Positions 7,868-18,239 of a DNA stretch of 64,000 nucleotides are shown piece after piece. The notes beneath the pieces are model-generated. The model was not told the origin of the DNA. It saw only the letters and a list, made by a program, of their open reading frames with translations, and searched no databases. This DNA is from Bdellovibrio bacteriovorus W (GTDB lineage: Bacteria; Bdellovibrionota; Bdellovibrionia; Bdellovibrionales; Bdellovibrionaceae), in NCBI GenBank assembly GCA_000525675.1, contig CP002190.1, positions 2,542,001 through 2,606,000 on the forward strand. Direction: 5' to 3'. Position numbers and translations under genes: made by a program. How positions within the stretch are numbered: position 1 is the stretch's first letter; the number at the start of each line of letters is the position of its first letter.

Positions 7868-8137
7868 ATGGCTGATAAAGTAAAACTCTCAAAAGACGGC
7901 AGTTCCATCGACTTCGTTCAGTCGGACAGCCTTCCTACATCTCTTAAAAAATTTAGACAAAGCCCTGAAATCGAAGGTTTCTACCGCTTTATCTACGAGA
8001 ACGACCTACAAAAAGAAACTTTTGAAATCCTAGATAAGATCATTCGTGATCGTAAATCGAAAAAAGCAGATGCTAAAAAAGAAGCCGCTGCAGCTGCCAA
8101 AGAAGAAAAGTCAGCAAAGAAAGCCCGCAAAAAATAA
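7868..8137 (+). CDS. Small conserved-looking protein with Lys/Ala-rich tail
   Basis: 89 residues. Residues 1-60 look folded (DKVKLSKDGSSIDFV, IEGFYRFIYENDLQKETFEILDKI), and residues 61-89 are a highly charged Lys/Ala/Glu tail ending KKARKK. No signal peptide or membrane segment. The basic tail suggests nucleic-acid or ribosome contact, which is inference. It is a monocistronic unit closed by a strong terminator. Confidence 0.75.
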   Translation: MADKVKLSKDGSSIDFVQSDSLPTSLKKFRQSPEIEGFYRFIYENDLQKETFEILDKIIRDRKSKKADAKKEAAAAAKEEKSAKKARKK

Positions 8138-8284: not shown

Positions 8285-8560
8285 ATGCAACCTCAAAAGA
8301 TTATCAAAAATAAAAAAGGCCAAGGCCTCATTGAGTACCTAGTTATCGTTGCCATTGTCGCCATCGGAAGTATGGCCGTTGTTAAGGTGGTCGGCGCAAA
8401 TGTCAGTGCAAAATTCGGCAATATCGCCAATGTTCTTGGAGGTAAAGCAGCTAGCACAAATATCACTACCCATGAAGTCACAGAGTCCATGACGAAAAAG
8501 AAAGACTTCGCAAATTTTTTTGATGGAGCTTCCAACCCCTCTAAAAAAAATGACCGCTAA
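8285..8560 (+). CDS. Flp-type (type IVb) pilin
   Basis: 91 residues. It has the class III prepilin N-terminus: a basic leader (KIIKNKKGQG) cut before LIEYLVIVAIV, with the conserved Glu at +3 of the hydrophobic stretch. Flp pilins polymerise into thin pili used in adhesion and, in Bdellovibrio, possibly in predation. AAGGAG precedes the start by 6 nt. The next gene starts inside this one (ATG 8550), so the two are translationally coupled. First gene of the pilus cluster 8285-11027. At 91 aa it is slightly longer than usual Flp pilins (50-80 aa), with a charged tail. Confidence 0.85.
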   Translation: MQPQKIIKNKKGQGLIEYLVIVAIVAIGSMAVVKVVGANVSAKFGNIANVLGGKAASTNITTHEVTESMTKKKDFANFFDGASNPSKKNDR

Positions 8561-8876
8561 AGGCCAAAGCACTATCGAAGCTGCCTTGGCTCTTCCACTT
8601 GTCGTCGTTCTCATTATGACTCTGACGACAATTTGCTACAGGGCCAGCGTCTATTTCTGGGCAGAGCATCAGCTTCACGAGGCCATTCTCTGTCTTGATA
8701 GTAGCTCTGAACGGGCGTGCGAAAACGACTTCTCACCCAGAATCAAAAAACTTTTACTCTTTAAAGAAGATCTAACAATCAGTCTGCGCAAGTCTCACAA
8801 CTATTCAACGGGTGAGTTGCAAATAAAATTAAAACCTCTGATCTATATCAAACAACGACGCTATGAAAAAAAATGA
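8550..8876 (+). CDS. TadE-like pseudopilin
   Basis: 108 residues from ATG 8550, which overlaps the pilin stop by 11 nt. The leader MTAKGQSTIEAALALPLVVV is the TadE-type signature: short basic leader, Gly/Gln before the cut and Glu at +5 of the hydrophobic helix. Two Cys (CLDSS, ACEND) follow in the periplasmic part. TadE-like minor pseudopilins are processed by the prepilin peptidase and needed for Flp pilus assembly. The last residues overlap the start of the next gene (8863). Confidence 0.75.
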   Translation: MTAKGQSTIEAALALPLVVVLIMTLTTICYRASVYFWAEHQLHEAILCLDSSSERACENDFSPRIKKLLLFKEDLTISLRKSHNYSTGELQIKLKPLIYIKQRRYEKK

Positions 8877-9579
8877 TAAAGGATTCATTCTAATATCACT
8901 ACTAACGGTTCTCCCCGTCTTGCTCGCTCTCGTTTTAGCTACTCTTTCGATGATCGACGTTCTAAAAAAAGACCTGGAGGTTAAGTATATCTGCCGCACA
9001 GAGCTTCTAGCTGCACAGAAAGAAAATGAGAAAAATATTCTCAGCCTTCTTAAACTCAATAGACGCGCCGAAAGCCTCAAGCAAAAGAAGACCGCTGCTG
9101 AAAGAGCTTTGTTTTTAGCCAAGGCACGCTTAGACCCCTTAGGAATAGCTGCTAGCAAAGCCCTACTTGCCTTTATCCACTCACAACAACTAGCTCTTGC
9201 AGCTGAACAAAAGGCTTTGATTGCAATAGCTAATCAAAGCATTCAGCTTCGCCAGAGAAACCTCGAAAGCAAAATTCGCTCTATCTTTAAAAGTAGTTCT
9301 CAGGCCTCGATGTCCTATCGCCTCACATCTCTCAGATCTTCTAAAACACTTTTAGCAGTTCGTCCGGTGAAAGCGGACATTGCTCCGAGCTATGAGAGAG
9401 TTCCTAATTTTTCTAAGGCTCAAAGCATGGAACTCCACTGGCAGTATGAACAAAGTCCCCACCGAGTCTTTTCAAATTTCTTAAAATACTCAGGGTCCAA
9501 TGAATACATCTGTATCGCTACACTAAAAAAATCGAGGGATCAATGGATCGCAAAAATTCACAAGGGCAAATATTTATAG
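8863..9579 (+). CDS. Pilus-locus protein with pseudopilin-like N-terminus
   Basis: 238 residues. The N-terminus KKNDKGFILISLLTVLPVLL resembles a prepilin leader with Gly-Phe at the cleavage point followed by one hydrophobic helix, but lacks the usual Glu at +5. The remainder is Lys/Arg/Leu-rich and probably helical, with one Cys near the N-terminus and one near the end. Overlapping starts and stops on both sides (14 nt with the TadE-like gene, 37 nt with the next) place it firmly in the pilus operon. A TadG-like or minor-pilin role is inferred from position only. Confidence 0.65.
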   Translation: MKKNDKGFILISLLTVLPVLLALVLATLSMIDVLKKDLEVKYICRTELLAAQKENEKNILSLLKLNRRAESLKQKKTAAERALFLAKARLDPLGIAASKALLAFIHSQQLALAAEQKALIAIANQSIQLRQRNLESKIRSIFKSSSQASMSYRLTSLRSSKTLLAVRPVKADIAPSYERVPNFSKAQSMELHWQYEQSPHRVFSNFLKYSGSNEYICIATLKKSRDQWIAKIHKGKYL

Positions 9580-9692
9580 AGCTCTGCCTAGTTCTGGCTG
9601 CCGTGCTCCTGATCACCTTCATGGGAGCACAGAGCTTTAAGGATATCTCAACAGACACTGGTAAATTTCAAATGACGACGAGGTCGAAATGA
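9543..9692 (+). CDS. Very short pseudopilin-like protein (49 aa)
   Basis: 49 codons starting at ATG 9543 inside the end of the previous gene and ending with an ATGA overlap into the next gene (9689). The product reads as a basic leader NSQGQ, then IFIELCLVLAAVLLITFMG, i.e. a TadE/Flp-type leader with Glu at +4 of a single hydrophobic helix, and a short tail. Translational coupling on both sides and the prepilin-like leader argue that it is a real minor pilin. It is short enough to be missed by automatic gene calling. Confidence 0.65.
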   Translation: MDRKNSQGQIFIELCLVLAAVLLITFMGAQSFKDISTDTGKFQMTTRSK

Positions 9693-10165
9693 AGAAGTAT
9701 TTAAAAATTATTAAAGAAAATCAGATGATCCTAGGCTTTGCTGTTTTGGGCCTTCTCTCGCTCCTATTTAGTTTGCGTGAACCTGCGCAAGAGGCAAATA
9801 CCGAGGGTGTCTATGAGTCAGTAGACACTTTTATTCCCAAAGGCTTTGTCCTGATTCCCATTGAGTTGCAAAACGCTGATTCCCTCTCATCCATCGTAGG
9901 ACAGATGGGTGGAGTTGTAGATCTTTACACTGTTCGCTCTGAAGGACATAAAGGGGGACTAAAAATAGGAACGCGCTTGAAAATTCTCAAAGCCCCTCTA
10001 AATCCCCAGCAATACGCTGTCTTAGTACCAGAGCTCGAAAGCTCTAAGGTGCTGGCCTTTGCTGGCCCCTTTATGGCTGTGATTCAAAACCCCGACGAAA
10101 AAGGCTCTGAACTCACCTCTCATCAGAATCGTGCCCCGAAAGTGCAAATTCACTATAGCAATTAA
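9689..10165 (+). CDS. Flp pilus-locus membrane-anchored protein (weakly CpaB/RcpC-like)
   Basis: 158 residues with one N-terminal transmembrane helix (MILGFAVLGLLSLLFSL, about residues 13-29) and a periplasmic part that contains VDTFIPKGFVLIPIELQNAD, similar in pattern to the SAF-type domain of CpaB/RcpC. CpaB proteins are about 250-300 aa, so this would be a short version. Position in a pilus operon with a 4-nt overlap to the preceding pseudopilin gene supports an assembly role. The family assignment is tentative. Confidence 0.55.
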   Translation: MKKYLKIIKENQMILGFAVLGLLSLLFSLREPAQEANTEGVYESVDTFIPKGFVLIPIELQNADSLSSIVGQMGGVVDLYTVRSEGHKGGLKIGTRLKILKAPLNPQQYAVLVPELESSKVLAFAGPFMAVIQNPDEKGSELTSHQNRAPKVQIHYSN

Positions 10166-10175
10166 GGAACTCGCC

Positions 10176-11027
10176 ATGAAAAAAATGATCTCATACTTAA
10201 TTTCTTTCTCTTTTATTTTATCTCCTCTAGCTAACGCGGCTGTGGTTATTAAAAACAAAGAGGTTTCGTCGCAAGAGTTTAAAAACTTTTTAGAAAAGAA
10301 TCCTCAAGCTATTTCAGTGAGCCGGTACTATTTTGAAAAGTGGTTTCAGGAAATGAAAAATCGCCAATCCATTTTTGAAATAGCCAGTTTATCTGAAGCG
10401 GACTTTGCGACACAGGCTTCTGAAATTGAATCGCAAAGAAGACTTTATCCGTTGTCGCCCGATGAAATGCGCTTCGTGAACTCTCTTGCTGAAAAAAATC
10501 TCGACAAGCCTGAAGCGCAAATGCTGTACTGCCTGAGCTCCCCCTTCAATCCCACTGAAGCAAGTCGTATTCCGTGCAGTGAAAAAATCATCCATTTAAA
10601 AGCCTTACAAAAAGCCTTCCCAGAGGTTCAATCTTTTATGATTGAAGGCTTTTTGATAAACGATGAGCGACCTTTTAAAGTTGCACAGAATCAATCCTAT
10701 AACTGGATTCTTCTATCCGATGCCCACAACCCTATTCAATTCTTTGGCACCTACGAGAATCTTCTCCAACAACGCTTTGAATGGTCTCCCATTATTACAG
10801 GAAGTTGCGATCGTTTTACAATTCATAGCCCCGATTCACTTTTAAGAATTTCGGCGCAAGTTTACTTTTCGTCTGAGTGTCTGCGAGAAACGCAAAAATC
10901 CAATGCTGAAATAAGTTTTGAAAAGGAATCTCGCACCGCTATTTGGGTCACTGGCGCTATTGTTCTCGGGGCCATTGCTTACTCTTTAAAAGATAAGCGA
11001 GTCTCCATTGACGTTCTTAGATTTTAA
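10176..11027 (+). CDS. Exported protein of the pilus cluster, function unknown
   Basis: 283 residues from ATG 10176, preceded by AAGGAACTCGCC; the frame is open further upstream but that extension lacks a binding site and a signal. A signal peptide covers residues 1-21 (ending PLANAAV). Four Cys occur in the middle and late parts (CLSSP, PCSEK, SCDRF, SECLR), consistent with periplasmic disulphides. One hydrophobic helix lies near the C-terminus (IWVTGAIVLGAIAYSL). No family recognised. It is the last gene of the first pilus block and overlaps the convergent amidohydrolase gene by 11 nt at the 3' end. Confidence 0.7.
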   Translation: MKKMISYLISFSFILSPLANAAVVIKNKEVSSQEFKNFLEKNPQAISVSRYYFEKWFQEMKNRQSIFEIASLSEADFATQASEIESQRRLYPLSPDEMRFVNSLAEKNLDKPEAQMLYCLSSPFNPTEASRIPCSEKIIHLKALQKAFPEVQSFMIEGFLINDERPFKVAQNQSYNWILLSDAHNPIQFFGTYENLLQQRFEWSPIITGSCDRFTIHSPDSLLRISAQVYFSSECLRETQKSNAEISFEKESRTAIWVTGAIVLGAIAYSLKDKRVSIDVLRF

Positions 11028-12276
11028 TTTCTTTCCCGCAGAAGACAATTTCCTTAACTTCTCTATTTTCAAAAACAGTGAACGAGTCCGCGAAAGAAAC
11101 ATCAGGATGAGAGTGATATTTTCCAATATCATCATTGAGTTTACGAATACCTTCTTTTGCGCTCATTTCTAAAGCATCAAAATTACTCCAAAAGGAGCTG
11201 GCTTCGATAGGACTATCGCAACCAAAAAAAGTAGGGATCTTGGCGACTCTTAAGGCTTCCATGGGGAATGCGTACTTATAAAGATCGCCAATTTTTTCTT
11301 GCAACCACGCTCTATCACTCAGCCAATGACAGGGCTGCATATAACAAGTTACGTGCAATGGTTTCATCATTTGAATTGTCTCTGGGCGTAGAATTTGTGC
11401 GTGCTCAAGATTCAAGCGACCGACAGCACCCTTCGCAGAAACCTCGCGTGCCACAGAGACAACTTCATGCGCTGCCTGATCTCCAATGACATGCACGGAA
11501 AATTCTAAACCTTTTTGCCACGTCTCTACGATGACTGTGGCTAGATCTTCACGACTCCAAAGCCTCATCCCTTGATTGCCGTTGGCGATATTTCTATAGG
11601 GATGCGAGAGCAGAGCAGTTTCTGAACCCAGCGTTCCGTCATAAAAAAGCTTGATGCCTTTCAAACGCAGCGTTGCTGTTTCTTGCTTTTTTGATTCACA
11701 GGCATTTTCTAACACACTGTGAAAATCAGAAATCTCGTGGGTGGTGTAGTTCTGCTCAATCGCGACTGTTAATTCTTCTGCCAAAGACATCATGTGAAGT
11801 CTTTGCCAAAGATCTTTCGTGCACGACATATCTCGAACATGTGTAAATCCAGCCTTATTATAGACGGAACAAGCTTTTAAAATATGAAGCCTTTGCTGAT
11901 CAGAGGTGTACGCAGGCAGAGAGTCCCAAGCCTTCAAATGCTCAGTCTCAATAAGCACGCCGGATTCTGATTCAATCCCTAGCTTTTCTAAAGCCAAACT
12001 ATTGAGCCAGCTACTGTGGCCGTCCTTACGCATGAAAAACACAGGCGCATCCGGAAAGTATTTATCTAAAACTTTTTTATGAATAGAAAAACTAAGAACG
12101 TCTTTATCCCAACCAAAACCCAAAATCCAATCTGAGCGAAAGCTGGCCGATGTCACCTGGAGATTTTGCAGATCATTTTCAGAACGAATCCCATGAAGCG
12201 ATAAACCAGATGAGAACTCACCCGTTGCTATAAAATGCGTATGACTATCGTAAAGACGAGGGATTTTTAAATGCAT
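11017..12276 (-). CDS. Amidohydrolase family protein (YtcJ-like, metal-dependent)
   Basis: 419 residues, no signal peptide. Metal-ligand motifs of the amidohydrolase superfamily appear in order: HTHF (about residue 12), the Lys region LKGIKLFYDGTLGSE, HVIGDQA, LEHAQIL and GCDSPIEA near the C-terminus. Most similar in layout to the YtcJ/amidohydro_3 group, though at 419 aa it is shorter than the typical 520-570 aa and starts almost directly at the HxH strand, so the N-terminal beta-sandwich is reduced. Substrate unknown. Its Shine-Dalgarno (GAGGG) sits in the arm of a 9-bp hairpin directly before the ATG. Confidence 0.8.
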   Translation of the reverse strand: MHLKIPRLYDSHTHFIATGEFSSGLSLHGIRSENDLQNLQVTSASFRSDWILGFGWDKDVLSFSIHKKVLDKYFPDAPVFFMRKDGHSSWLNSLALEKLGIESESGVLIETEHLKAWDSLPAYTSDQQRLHILKACSVYNKAGFTHVRDMSCTKDLWQRLHMMSLAEELTVAIEQNYTTHEISDFHSVLENACESKKQETATLRLKGIKLFYDGTLGSETALLSHPYRNIANGNQGMRLWSREDLATVIVETWQKGLEFSVHVIGDQAAHEVVSVAREVSAKGAVGRLNLEHAQILRPETIQMMKPLHVTCYMQPCHWLSDRAWLQEKIGDLYKYAFPMEALRVAKIPTFFGCDSPIEASSFWSNFDALEMSAKEGIRKLNDDIGKYHSHPDVSFADSFTVFENREVKEIVFCGKEIKI

Positions 12277-12333: not shown

Positions 12334-13212
12334 TTATCGAGCAGAAGGAATTGGAGCAGTTCCTGTTCCTGTAGCTGAACCTACTGGCAAGCTATTCATA
12401 CCGCCGCCTGGCAATGGTGTAATTCCATTATTGTTAGGATATCCAATGTATCCGCCGCCGCCGATACCGCCGCCAATAGAACCACCAATAGAGCCACCTA
12501 AGTAACTAGTGCCACCGAACTGCACTTGTTGGATTTTGTAAACCAAAGAGTAAAGCTCTTGTTGTAAACCTGCCACAACTTGTTGGCGTTGCATTTGCTG
12601 CTGCATGTAGCTCTGCTGTTGTTGCATATAGGATTGATATTGCTGCATTTGCATTTGCATCATTTGCTGTTGCATCTGCATTGCACCTAATCCGCCATCC
12701 ATTGAGCCCATCATTGGCATACCCATCATGCCACCCATTGCTCCACCAGCCATCATACCCATTGGCATACCCATCATACCGCCACCCATCATGTTGCCCA
12801 TAGGCATTCCCATGACACCACCGATACCGCCACCAATCATCGCACCCATAGGCATACCCATCATATTACCCATTGGCATGCCCATCATTCCGCCGCCCAT
12901 CATGCTACCCATTGGCATACCCATCATACCGCCACCCATCATGCTACCCATAGGCATTCCCATGACACCGCCGATACCGCCACCAATCATCGCCCCCATA
13001 GGCATACCCATCATATTACCCATTGGCATGCCCATCATTCCGCCGCCCATCATGCTACCCATTGGCATACCCATCATACCGCCGCCCATCATGTTGCCCA
13101 TAGGCATTCCCATGACACCGCCGATACCGCCACCAATCATCGCACCCATAGGCATACCCATCATATTACCCATAGGCATACCCATCATGCCGCCCATCAT
13201 CGGGTAGCCCAT
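12334..13212 (-). CDS. Met/Gly-rich repeat part of a frameshifted exported protein (3' part)
   Basis: This is the downstream half of a gene whose upstream half is 13166-14428. The open frame extends to 13353, but only residues from about 13212 onward read as sensible protein. It contains arrays of MMGMPMGN/S/A modules separated by GGG and MIGGGIGGV, then a Met/Gln-rich stretch (about 60 residues with QMQQQMMQMQ and YMQQQ), a short folded-looking segment AGLQQELYSLVYKIQQVQ and a Gly-rich tail ending APIPSAR. Removing one G from the GGG at about 13207-13209 joins it in frame to the upstream half, giving one protein of about 697 aa. No known function; low-complexity surface or matrix protein is a guess. 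Confidence 0.6.
   Translation of the reverse strand: MGYPMMGGMMGMPMGNMMGMPMGAMIGGGIGGVMGMPMGNMMGGGMMGMPMGSMMGGGMMGMPMGNMMGMPMGAMIGGGIGGVMGMPMGSMMGGGMMGMPMGSMMGGGMMGMPMGNMMGMPMGAMIGGGIGGVMGMPMGNMMGGGMMGMPMGMMAGGAMGGMMGMPMMGSMDGGLGAMQMQQQMMQMQMQQYQSYMQQQQSYMQQQMQRQQVVAGLQQELYSLVYKIQQVQFGGTSYLGGSIGGSIGGGIGGGGYIGYPNNNGITPLPGGGMNSLPVGSATGTGTAPIPSAR
12790..13190 (-). repeat. 150-bp tandem repeat array coding for 50-residue Met/Gly units
   Basis: The coding sequence repeats with a 150-bp period. For example, near-identical blocks begin at about 12838, 12988 and 13138, each starting CATCGC(A/C)CCCATAGGCAT on the plus strand. Copies differ at only a few positions. Inside each unit there is a shorter sub-period based on GGCATACCCAT. 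Such arrays change length easily by slippage or recombination. Confidence 0.85.
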
Positions 13213-14428
13213 AGCCACCCGGGTATGGTCCGCCCATTCCCCAAGGTCCGGCCATACCCCAAGGCCCCATTCCCGGCATGTAAATGCCGCCACCGATACC
13301 GCCCATGCCCATGCCGCCCATCGCATACGGGTTACCCCACATGCCTGAACCATTCATACCACCGTAAGGGCCCATCATTCCGTATGCGCCGCCATTTTGA
13401 CCGGCACAACCGAAGCCACCAGCTCCAATGCCGCCACCTACGGCGCCGTAAATTCCACTACCACCACCAATTGCTTGCCCAATGCCTTGAGCTAAGAATG
13501 GAAATCCGTATCCCCATGCTGGGTAAGGATCTGTTGGCCAGCCAATATTAGCATTGGCTTGAGTTGCCATTTTATTTGTCTGATAGCCCATGTATGTTGC
13601 TGCCAAACCAAGACCGATGTTTCCAACAACAGAGCCCCAATCAGTTTCTGGTTTTTGATACGTATAACCTGAACCTTGAACCATACAGTCGATACAGATT
13701 CCGCCCTCTGACTGCGAACGCTGTCTTTCACGCTGTTCATCAGCATAATTGGCTTTAGCATCTGAGATATCATCTTTTGCATTACGAATAAGGTTTTCTA
13801 AAGATTCAATTTCACGTTGAAGTTTATTGGCTTGAATATGTGCTTTACGATAATCAACAAGACCCTTTTTACAATCTTGGGCTGTTGCACGTCCTTTTTC
13901 AGGCTGGCGGAAACGAGCCCCATCACACACTGTTCCTGAAACCGACCCTGCTTTGTTGCTATCACAAAGAACTGCCCACTCGCTCACGGTGAATGCACGA
14001 ACATCACGTGACGCTGGCGCCTGAACAGAGGTGTTGCCAATCTCTGCTTGGACGATGGGTTCATCCTGTTGCCCCAAACCTCGATATTCTTTACAGCTCA
14101 CATTGTTTTCGATGTGATCAAATACCAACTCTGAGAATTCATCTGAAACCACTTGCTCAACATTTTTACGAGCACGGTCCATCGTATTATTAACGAGTCT
14201 TTTCTTTTCAGATTTTTTTGTACGTAATTGCTTTTCAGCTTCACGAATATTTTCCTGAGCTTCTTTGATTTCATCAAGGTAGCTAGAAGAACCGGCCGCA
14301 GAACCATAGTTATAAGGGCAAGACTGCATCCCACCGTACATCCCAGTTCCCCACATCTGTGCGTTTGCACCGAATGAAAAACCTGTGATTAAACTTAGTG
14401 GAGCTACTATGCGCATCCAAAACTTCAT
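13166..14428 (-). CDS. Exported coiled-coil and Gly-rich protein, N-terminal part of the frameshifted Met-rich protein
   Basis: 420 residues as read, but the last 13 (LPDDGRHDGYAYG) are out-of-frame translation of the repeat region. An AGGAG lies upstream of ATG 14428. Signal peptide ends near residue 23 (FGANAQ). Residues about 50-85 and 190-240 are charged helices likely to form coiled coil. Two Cys pairs are visible (SCKEY/LCDSN, CIDCM). From about residue 265 on it becomes Gly/Met/Tyr/Trp-rich (GPWGMAGPWGMGG). The +1 shift at the GGG around 13207-13209 cuts it off before the repeat array. It may be a genuine lesion or a sequencing error. Confidence 0.7.
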   Translation of the reverse strand: MKFWMRIVAPLSLITGFSFGANAQMWGTGMYGGMQSCPYNYGSAAGSSSYLDEIKEAQENIREAEKQLRTKKSEKKRLVNNTMDRARKNVEQVVSDEFSELVFDHIENNVSCKEYRGLGQQDEPIVQAEIGNTSVQAPASRDVRAFTVSEWAVLCDSNKAGSVSGTVCDGARFRQPEKGRATAQDCKKGLVDYRKAHIQANKLQREIESLENLIRNAKDDISDAKANYADEQRERQRSQSEGGICIDCMVQGSGYTYQKPETDWGSVVGNIGLGLAATYMGYQTNKMATQANANIGWPTDPYPAWGYGFPFLAQGIGQAIGGGSGIYGAVGGGIGAGGFGCAGQNGGAYGMMGPYGGMNGSGMWGNPYAMGGMGMGGIGGGIYMPGMGPWGMAGPWGMGGPYPGGYGLPDDGRHDGYAYG

Positions 14429-14556: not shown

Positions 14557-14638
14557 GCTGGCCCATCATCATCCATGACAATGCTTAAGAGCATAAAATA
14601 CTTTGCAACGCTCTACTTCAAATCCTACACTACAATAT

Positions 14639-15757
14639 ATGACGAAGCACACAATTCTTTGTGTAGATGATGAAATTGATAACGTAGATGCCCTAGAGCG
14701 CCTTTTCCGCAAGAAGTATTCTGTACTAAAGGCGACCTCAGGTGCTGATGCACTCGCACTGCTCGACAAACATCCAGGGCCAATTTCACTCATCATCACG
14801 GATCAGCGAATGCCTGAAATGACAGGTGTCGAATTCTTAGAGAAAACTCTGGAGTCTCATCCTGAGACAATTCGAATTCTGTTAACAGGGTACACTGATC
14901 TTGAATCAGTTATCATGGCTGTGAACAAAGGACAGATTTTCAGGTACATCACAAAACCTTGGGACCCCGTAGATCTGAATAATACTGTTGAACACGCCAT
15001 CGAGCGTTTTGCTCTGGGGCAAGAATTAAAACAAAAAAACAACGAGCTTGCTCAGGCGCTTGAAGATTTAAAGAGTTTGGACCAAGCCAAATCTAACTTC
15101 ATGATTTTGATTAATCACGAACTTAAAACACCACTGACTTCTATTTTAAGTTTTGCAGCTCTCCTCAAAGAATCTTCCCTCTCTGATGAAGATACGTTGA
15201 TGGTGAATCGTATCAACAAAAGTGCGGAGCGATTAAAATCCCTGATCGATGACGTTCTTCTAATCGTCAGGGCAGAAACAAATCAACTCAAGCTCGATCT
15301 TCAAGAGATATCTATCGAGAATCTTGAAAATGAACTTTTGCCTGAACATCAAAGACTGGCGACAAATAAAAACATCACATTCGCCGCGGACTATGCTCCG
15401 GTTACAGTAAAAGCCGACTCTCGATTGATCAAACAAGTTTGCTCTCGTCTCTTACATAATGCTGTTAAATTTTGTGAGGATGGAACGACGATTGAGATTA
15501 AAACAAAGGTCTCTGGAAATTACTTGCAGATTCATTTCAAAAACAGAGGCCCACAAATTCCTACCAAGGTTATTCAGAAAATAACTGAACCCTTCTATAT
15601 TGATGAAGATGTTATGCATCACTCAACGGGAACGGGCTTGGGTCTTAGTATTTGCCAAGCCATTTTAAAAACTCACTCATCATCTTTAGATTTCTTAAAT
15701 ACAGATGAAGGAGTTAAAGTGGGTTTTGAGCTTCCCCTTGCCCGTCCGGTTTCTTAG
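14639..15757 (+). CDS. Receiver-histidine kinase with response regulator domain at the N-terminus
   Basis: 372 residues from ATG 14639 (an upstream TTG at 14603 is less likely; neither has a strong binding site). Residues about 4-120 are a receiver domain: CVDDE acidic pocket, phospho-acceptor Asp in IITDQRMPEMTG, LLTGY and the Lys in YITKPWD. A short coiled coil follows, then HisKA with INHELKTPLTS (His about residue 158) and HATPase_c with LLHNAVKFC and GTGLGLSICQA. No membrane helix, so it is cytosolic. The receiver-first order suggests that it takes phosphate from another kinase or is controlled by one. It sits between the two halves of the Tad pilus locus and might regulate it. Confidence 0.9.
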   Translation: MTKHTILCVDDEIDNVDALERLFRKKYSVLKATSGADALALLDKHPGPISLIITDQRMPEMTGVEFLEKTLESHPETIRILLTGYTDLESVIMAVNKGQIFRYITKPWDPVDLNNTVEHAIERFALGQELKQKNNELAQALEDLKSLDQAKSNFMILINHELKTPLTSILSFAALLKESSLSDEDTLMVNRINKSAERLKSLIDDVLLIVRAETNQLKLDLQEISIENLENELLPEHQRLATNKNITFAADYAPVTVKADSRLIKQVCSRLLHNAVKFCEDGTTIEIKTKVSGNYLQIHFKNRGPQIPTKVIQKITEPFYIDEDVMHHSTGTGLGLSICQAILKTHSSSLDFLNTDEGVKVGFELPLARPVS

Positions 15758-15797: not shown

Positions 15798-15832
15798 TAA
15801 TTAGGCCGAAGCTTTTTGCTTAGGTCTAATTA
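15798..15832 (+). promoter_or_regulatory. Stem-loop covering the start of the secretin gene
   Basis: Arms TAATTAGGCC (15798-15807) and GGTCTAATTA (15823-15832) pair with one G-U, and the inner AAGC/GCTT extends the stem around a T5 loop. The right arm contains the only Shine-Dalgarno-like bases (TTAGG) and the A of the secretin ATG at 15832. Confidence 0.55.
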
Positions 15833-17136
15833 TGAAAACACTTATCTTTCTTTTTTCTACTTTCCTTTCAAATATTGCATTTTCTCAATCCCTGATTATG
15901 TCCCTCGGAGACACCCGTGCACTCCCCTTAACTGCCACTAACGTTTGGGTGCAAAATCGCGAAATCATCAAAGCTGAAGCCTCTTTGAATGATTTGAAAA
16001 TCACCGCCCTGTCCTTGGGAAGAACGACCCTAAAAATCGGCAAGCAACATTTTGTTATACAGGTTATTCACCCCTCTCAAGAAAGCTCCCTCAAGGAACT
16101 CTCTCAAACCACTGAAAAAATGGTCGGACTTCATGTTGAAGTTGCTCAAGGCAATGTACAGGTTCGAGGAACTCTTTATCGTTTTAAAGATTGGCAAGAA
16201 ATCTCAAAAATTGCCGAGAAAAACAAATTCACCTTCCGAATGAAAGCAGAGCTTATCGGCGCAGCAAAAAGTGAAGCGCAGAATTACTTTGAAGCAAAAC
16301 TTAAAGAGGCTCACCTACCGCCACAAAAAGTTATTTTTTCTTCAGGAGCAGAGGTCAGAGTAAATACGGAGGCCCTTCTATTTTCAAAGTATCAAGAGAT
16401 CTTCGAACCTTTCGGCGTACAAATCTTGAAGGATGAAACCCATCTAGATATTCAGCCCACCGTGAAAGTAGAAATCACCGTTGCGGAAGTTCGCAAAAGT
16501 GCCGCCCTTAGCTACGGTATGAAGTGGCCACAAAGCTATCGAGCCAATGTCCTTGGGGATGGCCAAAGTGAGATTGAAAAGCTTGCCTTTGAAGCTACCG
16601 CATTTGAAAGTCAGGGCTTAGGAAAAATCTTAGCCAGTCCTAACATTCTATGCAAAAGCGGCAAAGAAGCCGAGTTTTTAGCTGGTGGCGAGTTTCCAAT
16701 AAAAATCGTGCAATACCGCAATCAAGATGTTCTCTGGAAACGCTATGGTATCCTTTTGAAAGTACGACCCTTGGCAGATACATCTGGAAGAATCAGTCTA
16801 TCGATTGATACCGAAATCACAACACTCGATGAAGCTAGGACAGTTGATAATATTCCGGGGCTTCTAACCAACAAAGTCTCAAGCCACTTTGATATTACCA
16901 AACCACAAACAATTGCACTTTCGGGTCTATTGAAAAACGACAATGGAAAAAACTCTGACGGTGTTCCTTGGCTCGGGCGCTTACCGATCTTAGGTCCTCT
17001 ATTTGCGAGCAAGGCGTTTCGTAATAATGAAACTGAATTAGTTATTTTCGTACGCCCTTCTATTTACGAAGAACGCCGCGATAGCGAGTTTCAAGAAGCA
17101 TCTCCTCAACACCTTTCTCATAAAGGGCTTAACTAA
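15832..17136 (+). CDS. Flp/Tad pilus secretin (CpaC/RcpA family)
   Basis: 434 residues. Signal peptide residues 1-18 (ending NIAFSQS). An N-terminal pilus-formation domain follows (SLGDTRALPL, then GRTTLKIGKQ), a BON-like segment with VQGNVQVRGTLYRF pattern, and the secretin core in the second half: VEITVAEVRKS, GKILASPNILCKSGKEAEFLAGGEFPI style core, and the hallmark VPWLGRLPILGPLF near residue 380. Secretins form the outer-membrane gate for the pilus. It overlaps the ATPase gene by one nucleotide (TAATG). A Cys in the usually Cys-free core (LASPNILCKSG) is unusual. Confidence 0.9.
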   Translation: MKTLIFLFSTFLSNIAFSQSLIMSLGDTRALPLTATNVWVQNREIIKAEASLNDLKITALSLGRTTLKIGKQHFVIQVIHPSQESSLKELSQTTEKMVGLHVEVAQGNVQVRGTLYRFKDWQEISKIAEKNKFTFRMKAELIGAAKSEAQNYFEAKLKEAHLPPQKVIFSSGAEVRVNTEALLFSKYQEIFEPFGVQILKDETHLDIQPTVKVEITVAEVRKSAALSYGMKWPQSYRANVLGDGQSEIEKLAFEATAFESQGLGKILASPNILCKSGKEAEFLAGGEFPIKIVQYRNQDVLWKRYGILLKVRPLADTSGRISLSIDTEITTLDEARTVDNIPGLLTNKVSSHFDITKPQTIALSGLLKNDNGKNSDGVPWLGRLPILGPLFASKAFRNNETELVIFVRPSIYEERRDSEFQEASPQHLSHKGLN

Positions 17137-18239
17137 TGTCGCCACAAAAAGTATTTTTAGAAATTGAAGATAAGATTAAGAAGATTCCCTTCAATGAATT
17201 TCTCATGTCCGATGATGATGAACAAAGTCACCGCGAAAAAGCGATCTCGCAGTTAATTCTAACAAATATAGAGGTTCACCCTCCAGAGGTAAAACAACGT
17301 CTGCATGATGAATTCTATGGCTTTGGCCCCTTAGAATCTCTGATGCGCGACCCTTCTATCAATGAAATCATCGTCAATAACGAATCCACAATATGGTTTG
17401 AAAAAAATGGCCAACTGCAATTAGCCGATGATCTTTTTTATTCATTAGTTTCCTATCGCAATATTATTGAGCGCATCTCGCAGAAGGCCAACACGCACCT
17501 TACAACTGAGCATCCGCGTGCAGAGGGGCATTTTGGTAATTTTCGTATCACTTTGATTGGCCCTTCATTAACAGGTGGAAAAGTCTATGTCAGTTTACGC
17601 CAACATCCGAATTCCACTTGGAGCTTAGATAAACTCTTAGAGCGTCAATGGTGCAACGTCGAACAAGCTGAAGTTCTAAAGGACATCATCGCAAAACATA
17701 AAAACTTTCTGATCGTAGGCGCAACAAGTGCTGGGAAGACTTCTGTCACCAACGCCCTTCTTGGCTTAATGAAACCTGAAGAACGATCCGTCATTATTGA
17801 AGATACCAGCGAACTTGCCCTCCCCAATCAGGCGAGTATCAAACTCTTAACTCGCTTTGACCCACAGGGCATTCTGCCCGAGGTTCGCCAAGAAGATCTT
17901 TTAAAAAGTACCCTGCGCCTAAGACCTGATCGAATTATTATGGGAGAAGTTAGGGGCTCTGAGGCCAAAGACTTTCTCATGGCGCTTGCGACTGGACACG
18001 GCGGGAGCTTTGGAACCTTGCACGCGCAAGACCCAGCCCAAGCTTTGATTCGACTTGAAATGCTCATTCAAATGGGTGCTCCTCAATGGAGTCTTATTGC
18101 CATTCGTCGTCTTATTCATATGTCTTTAAATTATATAATTGTTGCCGGTCGCAATCGGGACAACCAACGAATCCTCAAGGGAGTATTTAGAATATGCTCC
18201 CTTGAAGAAAATGGATTTTTAATTGAACAAGTCTGTTAG
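17136..18239 (+). CDS. tadA: Flp/Tad pilus assembly ATPase (CpaF/TadA family)
   Basis: 367 residues, cytosolic hexameric motor that drives Flp pilus assembly. N-terminal domain with FGPLESLMRDPSINEIIVNN, arginine region HLTTEHPRAEGHF, Walker A GATSAGKTS (about residue 192), Asp box IIEDTSELALP, Walker B RPDRIIMGEVRG and the His box GSFGTLHA. The Walker A has Ala-Thr-Ser-Ala in place of the usual Thr-Gly-Ser, a conservative variant. At 367 aa it lacks the long N-terminal region of CpaF (about 450-500 aa). Translationally coupled to the secretin. TadB/TadC platform genes and a prepilin peptidase are not in this window. Confidence 0.92.
   Translation: MSPQKVFLEIEDKIKKIPFNEFLMSDDDEQSHREKAISQLILTNIEVHPPEVKQRLHDEFYGFGPLESLMRDPSINEIIVNNESTIWFEKNGQLQLADDLFYSLVSYRNIIERISQKANTHLTTEHPRAEGHFGNFRITLIGPSLTGGKVYVSLRQHPNSTWSLDKLLERQWCNVEQAEVLKDIIAKHKNFLIVGATSAGKTSVTNALLGLMKPEERSVIIEDTSELALPNQASIKLLTRFDPQGILPEVRQEDLLKSTLRLRPDRIIMGEVRGSEAKDFLMALATGHGGSFGTLHAQDPAQALIRLEMLIQMGAPQWSLIAIRRLIHMSLNYIIVAGRNRDNQRILKGVFRICSLEENGFLIEQVC

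Follow-up and report, generated by a model that had tools for sequence, protein, structure and literature searches.

The window analysed here, a 64-kb (64,000-nucleotide) stretch of the genome of Bdellovibrio bacteriovorus strain W, holds a pilus-type locus with a repeat-bearing gene in its middle. On the plus strand lie a Flp pilin gene (8285-8560), which is the positional orthologue of flp3 (bd3297; PMC5430801) by synteny and by a Flp_Fap match below cut-off, a gene for a protein with receiver, HisKA and HATPase domains (14603-15757; Pfam and synteny), a secretin gene (15832-17136; Pfam and synteny) and a gene for a CpaF/TadA-type ATPase (17136-18239; synteny). The last two correspond to bd3306 and bd3307 of strain HD100 (tags from PMC3818213). 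On the minus strand, two ORFs in different frames face the histidine kinase gene divergently, and an amidohydrolase gene (Amidohydro_3; 11017-12276; Pfam and synteny) is their conserved downstream neighbor. ORF1 (13166-14428, 420 aa) encodes a signal peptide, a Cys-rich coiled-coil head and a Gly-rich GMWGNPY...GMGPWG segment, and ORF2 (12334-13353, 339 aa as listed) carries a tandem array. The Flp3 locus (8285-11027 and 15832-18239) is interrupted by the amidohydrolase, the repeat gene and the histidine kinase.

The array spans 12756-13194 and is coded by the minus strand. Tandem Repeats Finder describes it as 2.9 copies of a 150-bp period with 96% matches, and the 50-codon unit reads MMGMPMGNMMGMPMGAMIGGGIGGVMGMPMG(N/S)MMGGGMMGMPMGSMMGGG. 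Self-identity at lag 150 was 0.96, whereas 2000 codon shuffles with composition kept averaged 0.37 and reached 0.50 at most, and at lags of 60-300 the rest of the 64-kb window never exceeded 0.42. The core motif ATGATGGGNATGCCNATGGG occurs nine times in the array against a chance expectation of 0, and was found nowhere else in the 3.0-Mb genome of strain W. The motif count and the codon shuffles rule out a chance origin, and confinement of the motif to the array within the genome rules out a mobile or genome-wide repeat. The two remaining minus-strand frames across the array contain many stops, and a plus-strand ORF with Pro/Ile repeats (12728-13207) is merely the mirror of the array and was rejected as a gene. 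The three 50-residue copies differ at 1-4 residues, 20 of the 30 differences between array units fall at third codon positions, and Met makes up 40% of the Met frame over 12790-13190. A Met/Gln-rich run comes after the array. The first-pass annotation of this sequence had reported a 150-bp tandem array, extreme Met richness, nearly identical 50-residue units and a subsequent Met/Gln-rich run, all of which these measurements bear out.

We read ORF1 and ORF2 as one gene because of the comparison with relatives, which is the sole evidence on this point. In relatives, a single ORF encodes the signal peptide, the coiled-coil head, the GMWGNPY...GMGPWG segment, the repeat tract, MQMQQQMMQMQMQQYQ and a tail, and complete copies of the gene are one ORF of ~580-740 aa. 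Strain W contains all of these segments in order, spread over two frames. At the DNA level, the ORF1-side segment ends at 13217 and the ORF2-side segment starts at 13212, and in relatives both are continuous in one frame. A one-base frame change on the minus strand at 13212-13217 thus separates ...GPWGMGGPYPG (ORF1) from MGYPMMGGMMGMPMG (ORF2). The final ~17 residues of ORF1 lie outside the ancestral frame, and the ancestral part of ORF2 starts at about residue 48 (window position 13212 downwards) and comprises the Met/Gly tract, the Gln/Met helix and a Gly-rich tail with a PIPSAR end. A programmed frameshift was ruled out, because a single frame serves in relatives, which do not share the displacement. 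The frameshift in the strain W copy had been overlooked by the first-pass annotation. Its description of the product as an exported protein is correct ancestrally, since the signal peptide is on ORF1 upstream, but not for the array frame, which lacks a signal peptide when taken alone.

The features of the encoded protein can be followed along the minus strand. A putative signal peptide, MKFWMRIVAPLSLITGFSFGANAQ (14357-14428), was read from the sequence, lacks a lipobox Cys and is conserved in orthologues. AlphaFold2 predicts two long helices in the head, most block means of pLDDT lying at 80-96: the first, with a short helix, covers residues 49-107 (14108-14284; block means mostly 84-95), and the second covers residues 183-241 (13706-13882; block means mostly 84-96, falling to ~70 at its end). 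The invariant CxxC (CIDC; 13685-13696) is one portion of a conserved cysteine set. Seven cysteines, including those of the CxxC, are invariant across 25 sequences, and an eighth is near-invariant overall and invariant among 29 full-length sequences. A hydrophobic/Gly helix, WGSVVGNIGLGLAATYMGYQTNKM (13568-13639), is supported by conserved columns and by AlphaFold2. The Gly-rich part is predicted to be unstructured, with a tract pLDDT of about 31-46. Beyond the array, sequence, an orthologue model and codon-position-3 bias point to a Gln/Met-rich C-terminal helix, MQMQQQMMQMQMQQYQ...QQELYSLVYKIQQVQ (12520-12681), which in orthologue L040 is predicted at residues 596-651 with a pLDDT of only about 50. 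The Gly-rich tail with the end PIPSAR (12337-12519) completes the protein.

A profile (A1) was built from the Cys-rich coiled-coil head of 25 sequences. It matched the strain W gene with an E value of 5.9e-170, a value to be read with the strain W sequence itself among the 25 profile rows; a single-sequence search with the strain W gene also reached all relatives. The gene is present in 24 of 24 Bdellovibrio genus genomes, and A1 matched 61 of 66 genomes of the Bdellovibrio family (52 of the 53 of good quality) and 112 of 369 genomes of the phylum, nearly all from the same order plus two from the same class. Genome G043 has one member. The first-pass annotation knew of no described family like it, and our searches agree: Pfam and NCBIfam contained no fitting model, including models of Tad components, for ORF1, ORF2 or relatives; a PDB sequence search returned nothing significant, only weak coiled-coil matches (E 0.044 and 0.058); and Foldseek gave nothing significant (best E 0.56). 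A literature search combining Bdellovibrio with 'methionine-rich' found no paper, and among the papers searched the likely locus tags bd3302-bd3305 are absent and only bd3306 appears (PMC3818213). Judged from sequence, the repeat gene belongs to an unnamed Bdellovibrionales family of Gly-rich coiled-coil proteins, found in nearly every good-quality Bdellovibrio-family genome at one conserved pilus-type locus and covered by no curated model. A shorter paralogous family, B, occurs in 18 of the 24 genus genomes and is absent from strain W. Pilus-type neighbor genes are absent from the family B loci (L060-L078), and in HD100 the family B gene (L068) immediately follows an OmpR-like response-regulator gene on the same strand.

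We give roughly even credence to the proposal that the protein is an elastic or sticky envelope scaffold, positionally tied to the flp3/secretin/CpaF machine. The sticky matrix suggested by the first-pass annotation survives here in modified form. The positional tie is consistent: within the genus the order is Flp pilin, TadE-like gene, small genes, amidohydrolase, repeat gene, divergent receiver-histidine kinase, secretin and CpaF, and this order is constant in the genus A loci as far as contigs reach. The most tightly linked partner is the kinase gene: outside the genus it adjoins the family gene in 35 of 40 loci, and CpaF is found in about 29 of 40, nearly always with the secretin. The Flp3 locus is kept order-wide although flp3 is reported to be silent in HD100 (PMC5430801).

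The main rival to the envelope scaffold, which we consider unlikely without dismissing it, makes the protein an adhesin or pilus-associated secreted substrate that exits through the neighboring secretin or decorates the Flp3 pilus, its hydrophobic tract sticking to prey or surfaces. Conservation of the locus with flp3, the TadE-like gene, the secretin and CpaF across the order would fit such a role, as would a putative signal peptide lacking a lipobox and the fast turnover of the repeats, which is typical of surface proteins. The family gene sits inside this Tad/Flp (type IVb) pilus locus, flp3 branch (bd3297-bd3307), order-wide, but it differs from Tad components in matching no Tad family model and in its strand; because the gene is opposite in strand to the pilus genes, a functional pilus link is read only from its conserved position. 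The family B loci without pilus genes, with the HD100 copy beside a response-regulator gene, also argue against this role. In HD100 under laboratory conditions, flp3 was found to be silent and could be dispensed with (PMC5430801), which speaks against an adhesin and suggests that the repeat gene, being part of the same locus, may be rarely used.

Another explanation is that the gene is decaying, with the frame change as a pseudogene mark and the array as a neutral repeat expansion. The strain W gene is indeed split by a one-base displacement, and its family B copy is missing. However, the gene is intact in the other genus genomes, where copies that do not read through stop at contig ends or N runs (L045, L062 and L047/L018). 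Downstream of the shift, comparison with five relatives gave 23-25 substitutions at codon position 3 against 9-10 and 7-9 at the other positions, a bias likewise seen upstream, and no second lesion was found in the 2.1 kb of the strain W gene. The downstream codons are still protein-constrained, which points to a recent frame change or to an error in sequencing; the sole copy in strain W is broken at this point. Absence in relatives, together with lack of expression, had been named by the first-pass annotation as a sign of a decaying gene; the comparison with relatives gave the opposite result, since every one of them carries the gene. Decay is thus improbable. When genes over about 4.5-23.5 kb of the window were compared with three syntenic relatives under one low-complexity filter, no other gene matched in two frames, which is a weak test in that the repeat gene itself went unflagged.

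The composition of the tract across relatives bears on what the methionines do. Among 72 members, the Met content of the tract lies between 1.8 and 37.4%, and it is only 2-6% at the same locus in L103, L107, L111, L121, L124 and L125. Orthologues at this locus carry repeats such as FPGGFPGG (L103), GALGGGLG (L111), NPYGINPYGG (L121) and FAGGFAGMPGMA (L112). Within the genus, MGMPM is present in 10-17 copies in several species and in none in the HD100 group, where the unit is instead MGAYPG in 8-10 copies. In a set of 28 genera with one member each, the tract averages about 37% Gly, 42% hydrophobic residues, 9% Pro and about 1.4% charged residues, and Met is inversely related to Leu/Ile/Val/Phe (rho -0.88). 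Because genera are not independent samples, the p-values of these comparisons serve as description. Met was unrelated to Gly (rho -0.06) and to Pro (rho 0.06), so the exchange is not explained by compositional closure. Total hydrophobic content varied with an SD of 0.054, compared to 0.134 under independent variation. On these sequence comparisons, methionine itself is probably not the point of the tract.

These data also weigh on copper/silver binding or trapping of oxidants by methionine at the surface, the roles that the first-pass annotation had put forward. In its M-x-M and MM spacings, the array is similar to Met motifs known to bind Cu(I). Met reaches 40% in the array span, and literature leads indicate that Met-rich tracts can be redox-sensitive. 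As a shared role, however, either function is very doubtful, because Met is replaced by other hydrophobic residues: at the same locus, some members have only 2-6% tract Met and build their repeats from Phe, Leu or Asn-Pro-Tyr, orthologues keep the architecture even at 2%, and Met ligands of the kind expected for Cu(I)/Ag(I) binding are not conserved among them. The conserved neighbors, which are pilus, two-component and amidohydrolase genes, include no copper or silver genes. In species with much Met, one of these functions could still exist as a secondary property. The bias of a single genome toward one amino acid can mislead, and here the relatives show that Met is dispensable.

A membrane-active protein whose long helix and hydrophobic helix act as in alpha-helical pore-formers is the least credible reading, and highly improbable: the sole recurring weak NCBIfam match, NF033928 (alpha-xenorhabdolysin A), had a best E of 2.7e-6 and came from 6 of 29 members, but its 26.9 bits fall far below the cut-off of 125, it covers only the coiled-coil stretch (13706-13882 and orthologues), where the resemblance to subunit A is probably coiled-coil bias, there is no Foldseek match (best E 0.56), and the Gly-rich tract is unlike alpha-helical pore-formers.

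In the proposed envelope-scaffold model, the array would be the low-complexity middle of an exported, Bdellovibrionales-specific cell-envelope protein. Behind the signal peptide comes a head that consists of a two-helix coiled coil and contains about eight conserved cysteines. It is followed by a hydrophobic/Gly helix, the long Gly/Pro/hydrophobic tract, a Gln-rich C-terminal helix and a Gly-rich tail with Arg as the last residue. The head and C-terminal helix may form oligomers held together by disulfides and coiled coils, with the uncharged tract between them acting as a flexible, self-adhering hydrophobic spacer comparable to elastin or abductin. Such an assembly would be an elastic or sticky scaffold, located within the envelope or on the cell surface. 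It would be linked to the pilus-type locus of flp3, secretin and CpaF and possibly controlled by the neighboring histidine kinase. Met would be one interchangeable hydrophobic residue, and turnover of tandem units would homogenize each lineage's own motif. An elastin/abductin-like hydrophobic Gly-rich spacer is favored because Met is exchanged independently of the Gly and Pro content. The tract is an uncharged Gly/Pro/hydrophobic low-complexity sequence predicted to be unstructured, as in elastomers, a likeness by analogy only. Conserved composition is no proof of elasticity, because low-complexity tracts can drift neutrally.

Several known systems resemble this arrangement. Abductin, the extracellular elastomer of the bivalve hinge, likewise combines a Cys-containing N-terminal part with a Gly/Met-rich tandem low-complexity chain, which is expected to be a random coil and has an elastic function (PMC13052691). 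It differs in having very little Pro and neither a coiled-coil head nor a Gln helix, and its Met is part of the consensus, whereas Met of the Bdellovibrionales family is replaced in relatives; no homology is claimed. In elastin and elastin-like polypeptides, helical, cross-linkable modules likewise flank an uncharged Gly/Pro/hydrophobic tract, but elastin is Val-Pro-Gly-rich with Lys cross-links and shares no ancestry with the family, whose elasticity is putative. Met-rich repeats are found in the insoluble extracellular shell scaffold of the pearl oyster (PMC7591529), which is likened by description, its proteins being eukaryotic and chitin- and biomineral-associated.

The C-terminus offers a concrete lead in the search for a signal that governs sorting or stability. 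A C-terminal Arg, whose codon in strain W is at 12337-12339 on the minus strand, ends 70 of 73 complete members, compared to 27 of 401 (6.7%) other long ORFs of the same loci. The tails preceding it are Gly/Pro/Thr-rich and otherwise divergent. As a guess, the Arg may be a sorting signal or may shield the nonpolar tail against periplasmic proteases.

More broadly, and with distinctly less confidence than in the scaffold itself, we tentatively suggest an order-wide elastomer-like envelope family of predatory bacteria, forming an elastic or adhesive scaffold around a dedicated Flp/secretin machine, in which selection keeps Gly and total hydrophobicity while Met, Leu, Phe and Asn-Pro-Tyr repeats swap and the C-terminal Arg acts as a signal not noticed before. 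The family amounts to a natural experiment, in which homologous copies of one scaffold have repeats based on Met, on Leu, on Phe or on Asn/Pro/Tyr; these variants separate the effect of the side chain from that of the Gly/Pro backbone in low-complexity proteins.

At 7868-8137, the window also encodes a short Lys/Ala-rich protein of 89 aa with no Pfam match, which is conserved at ~90% identity over most of the genus and is usually near the flp3 locus.
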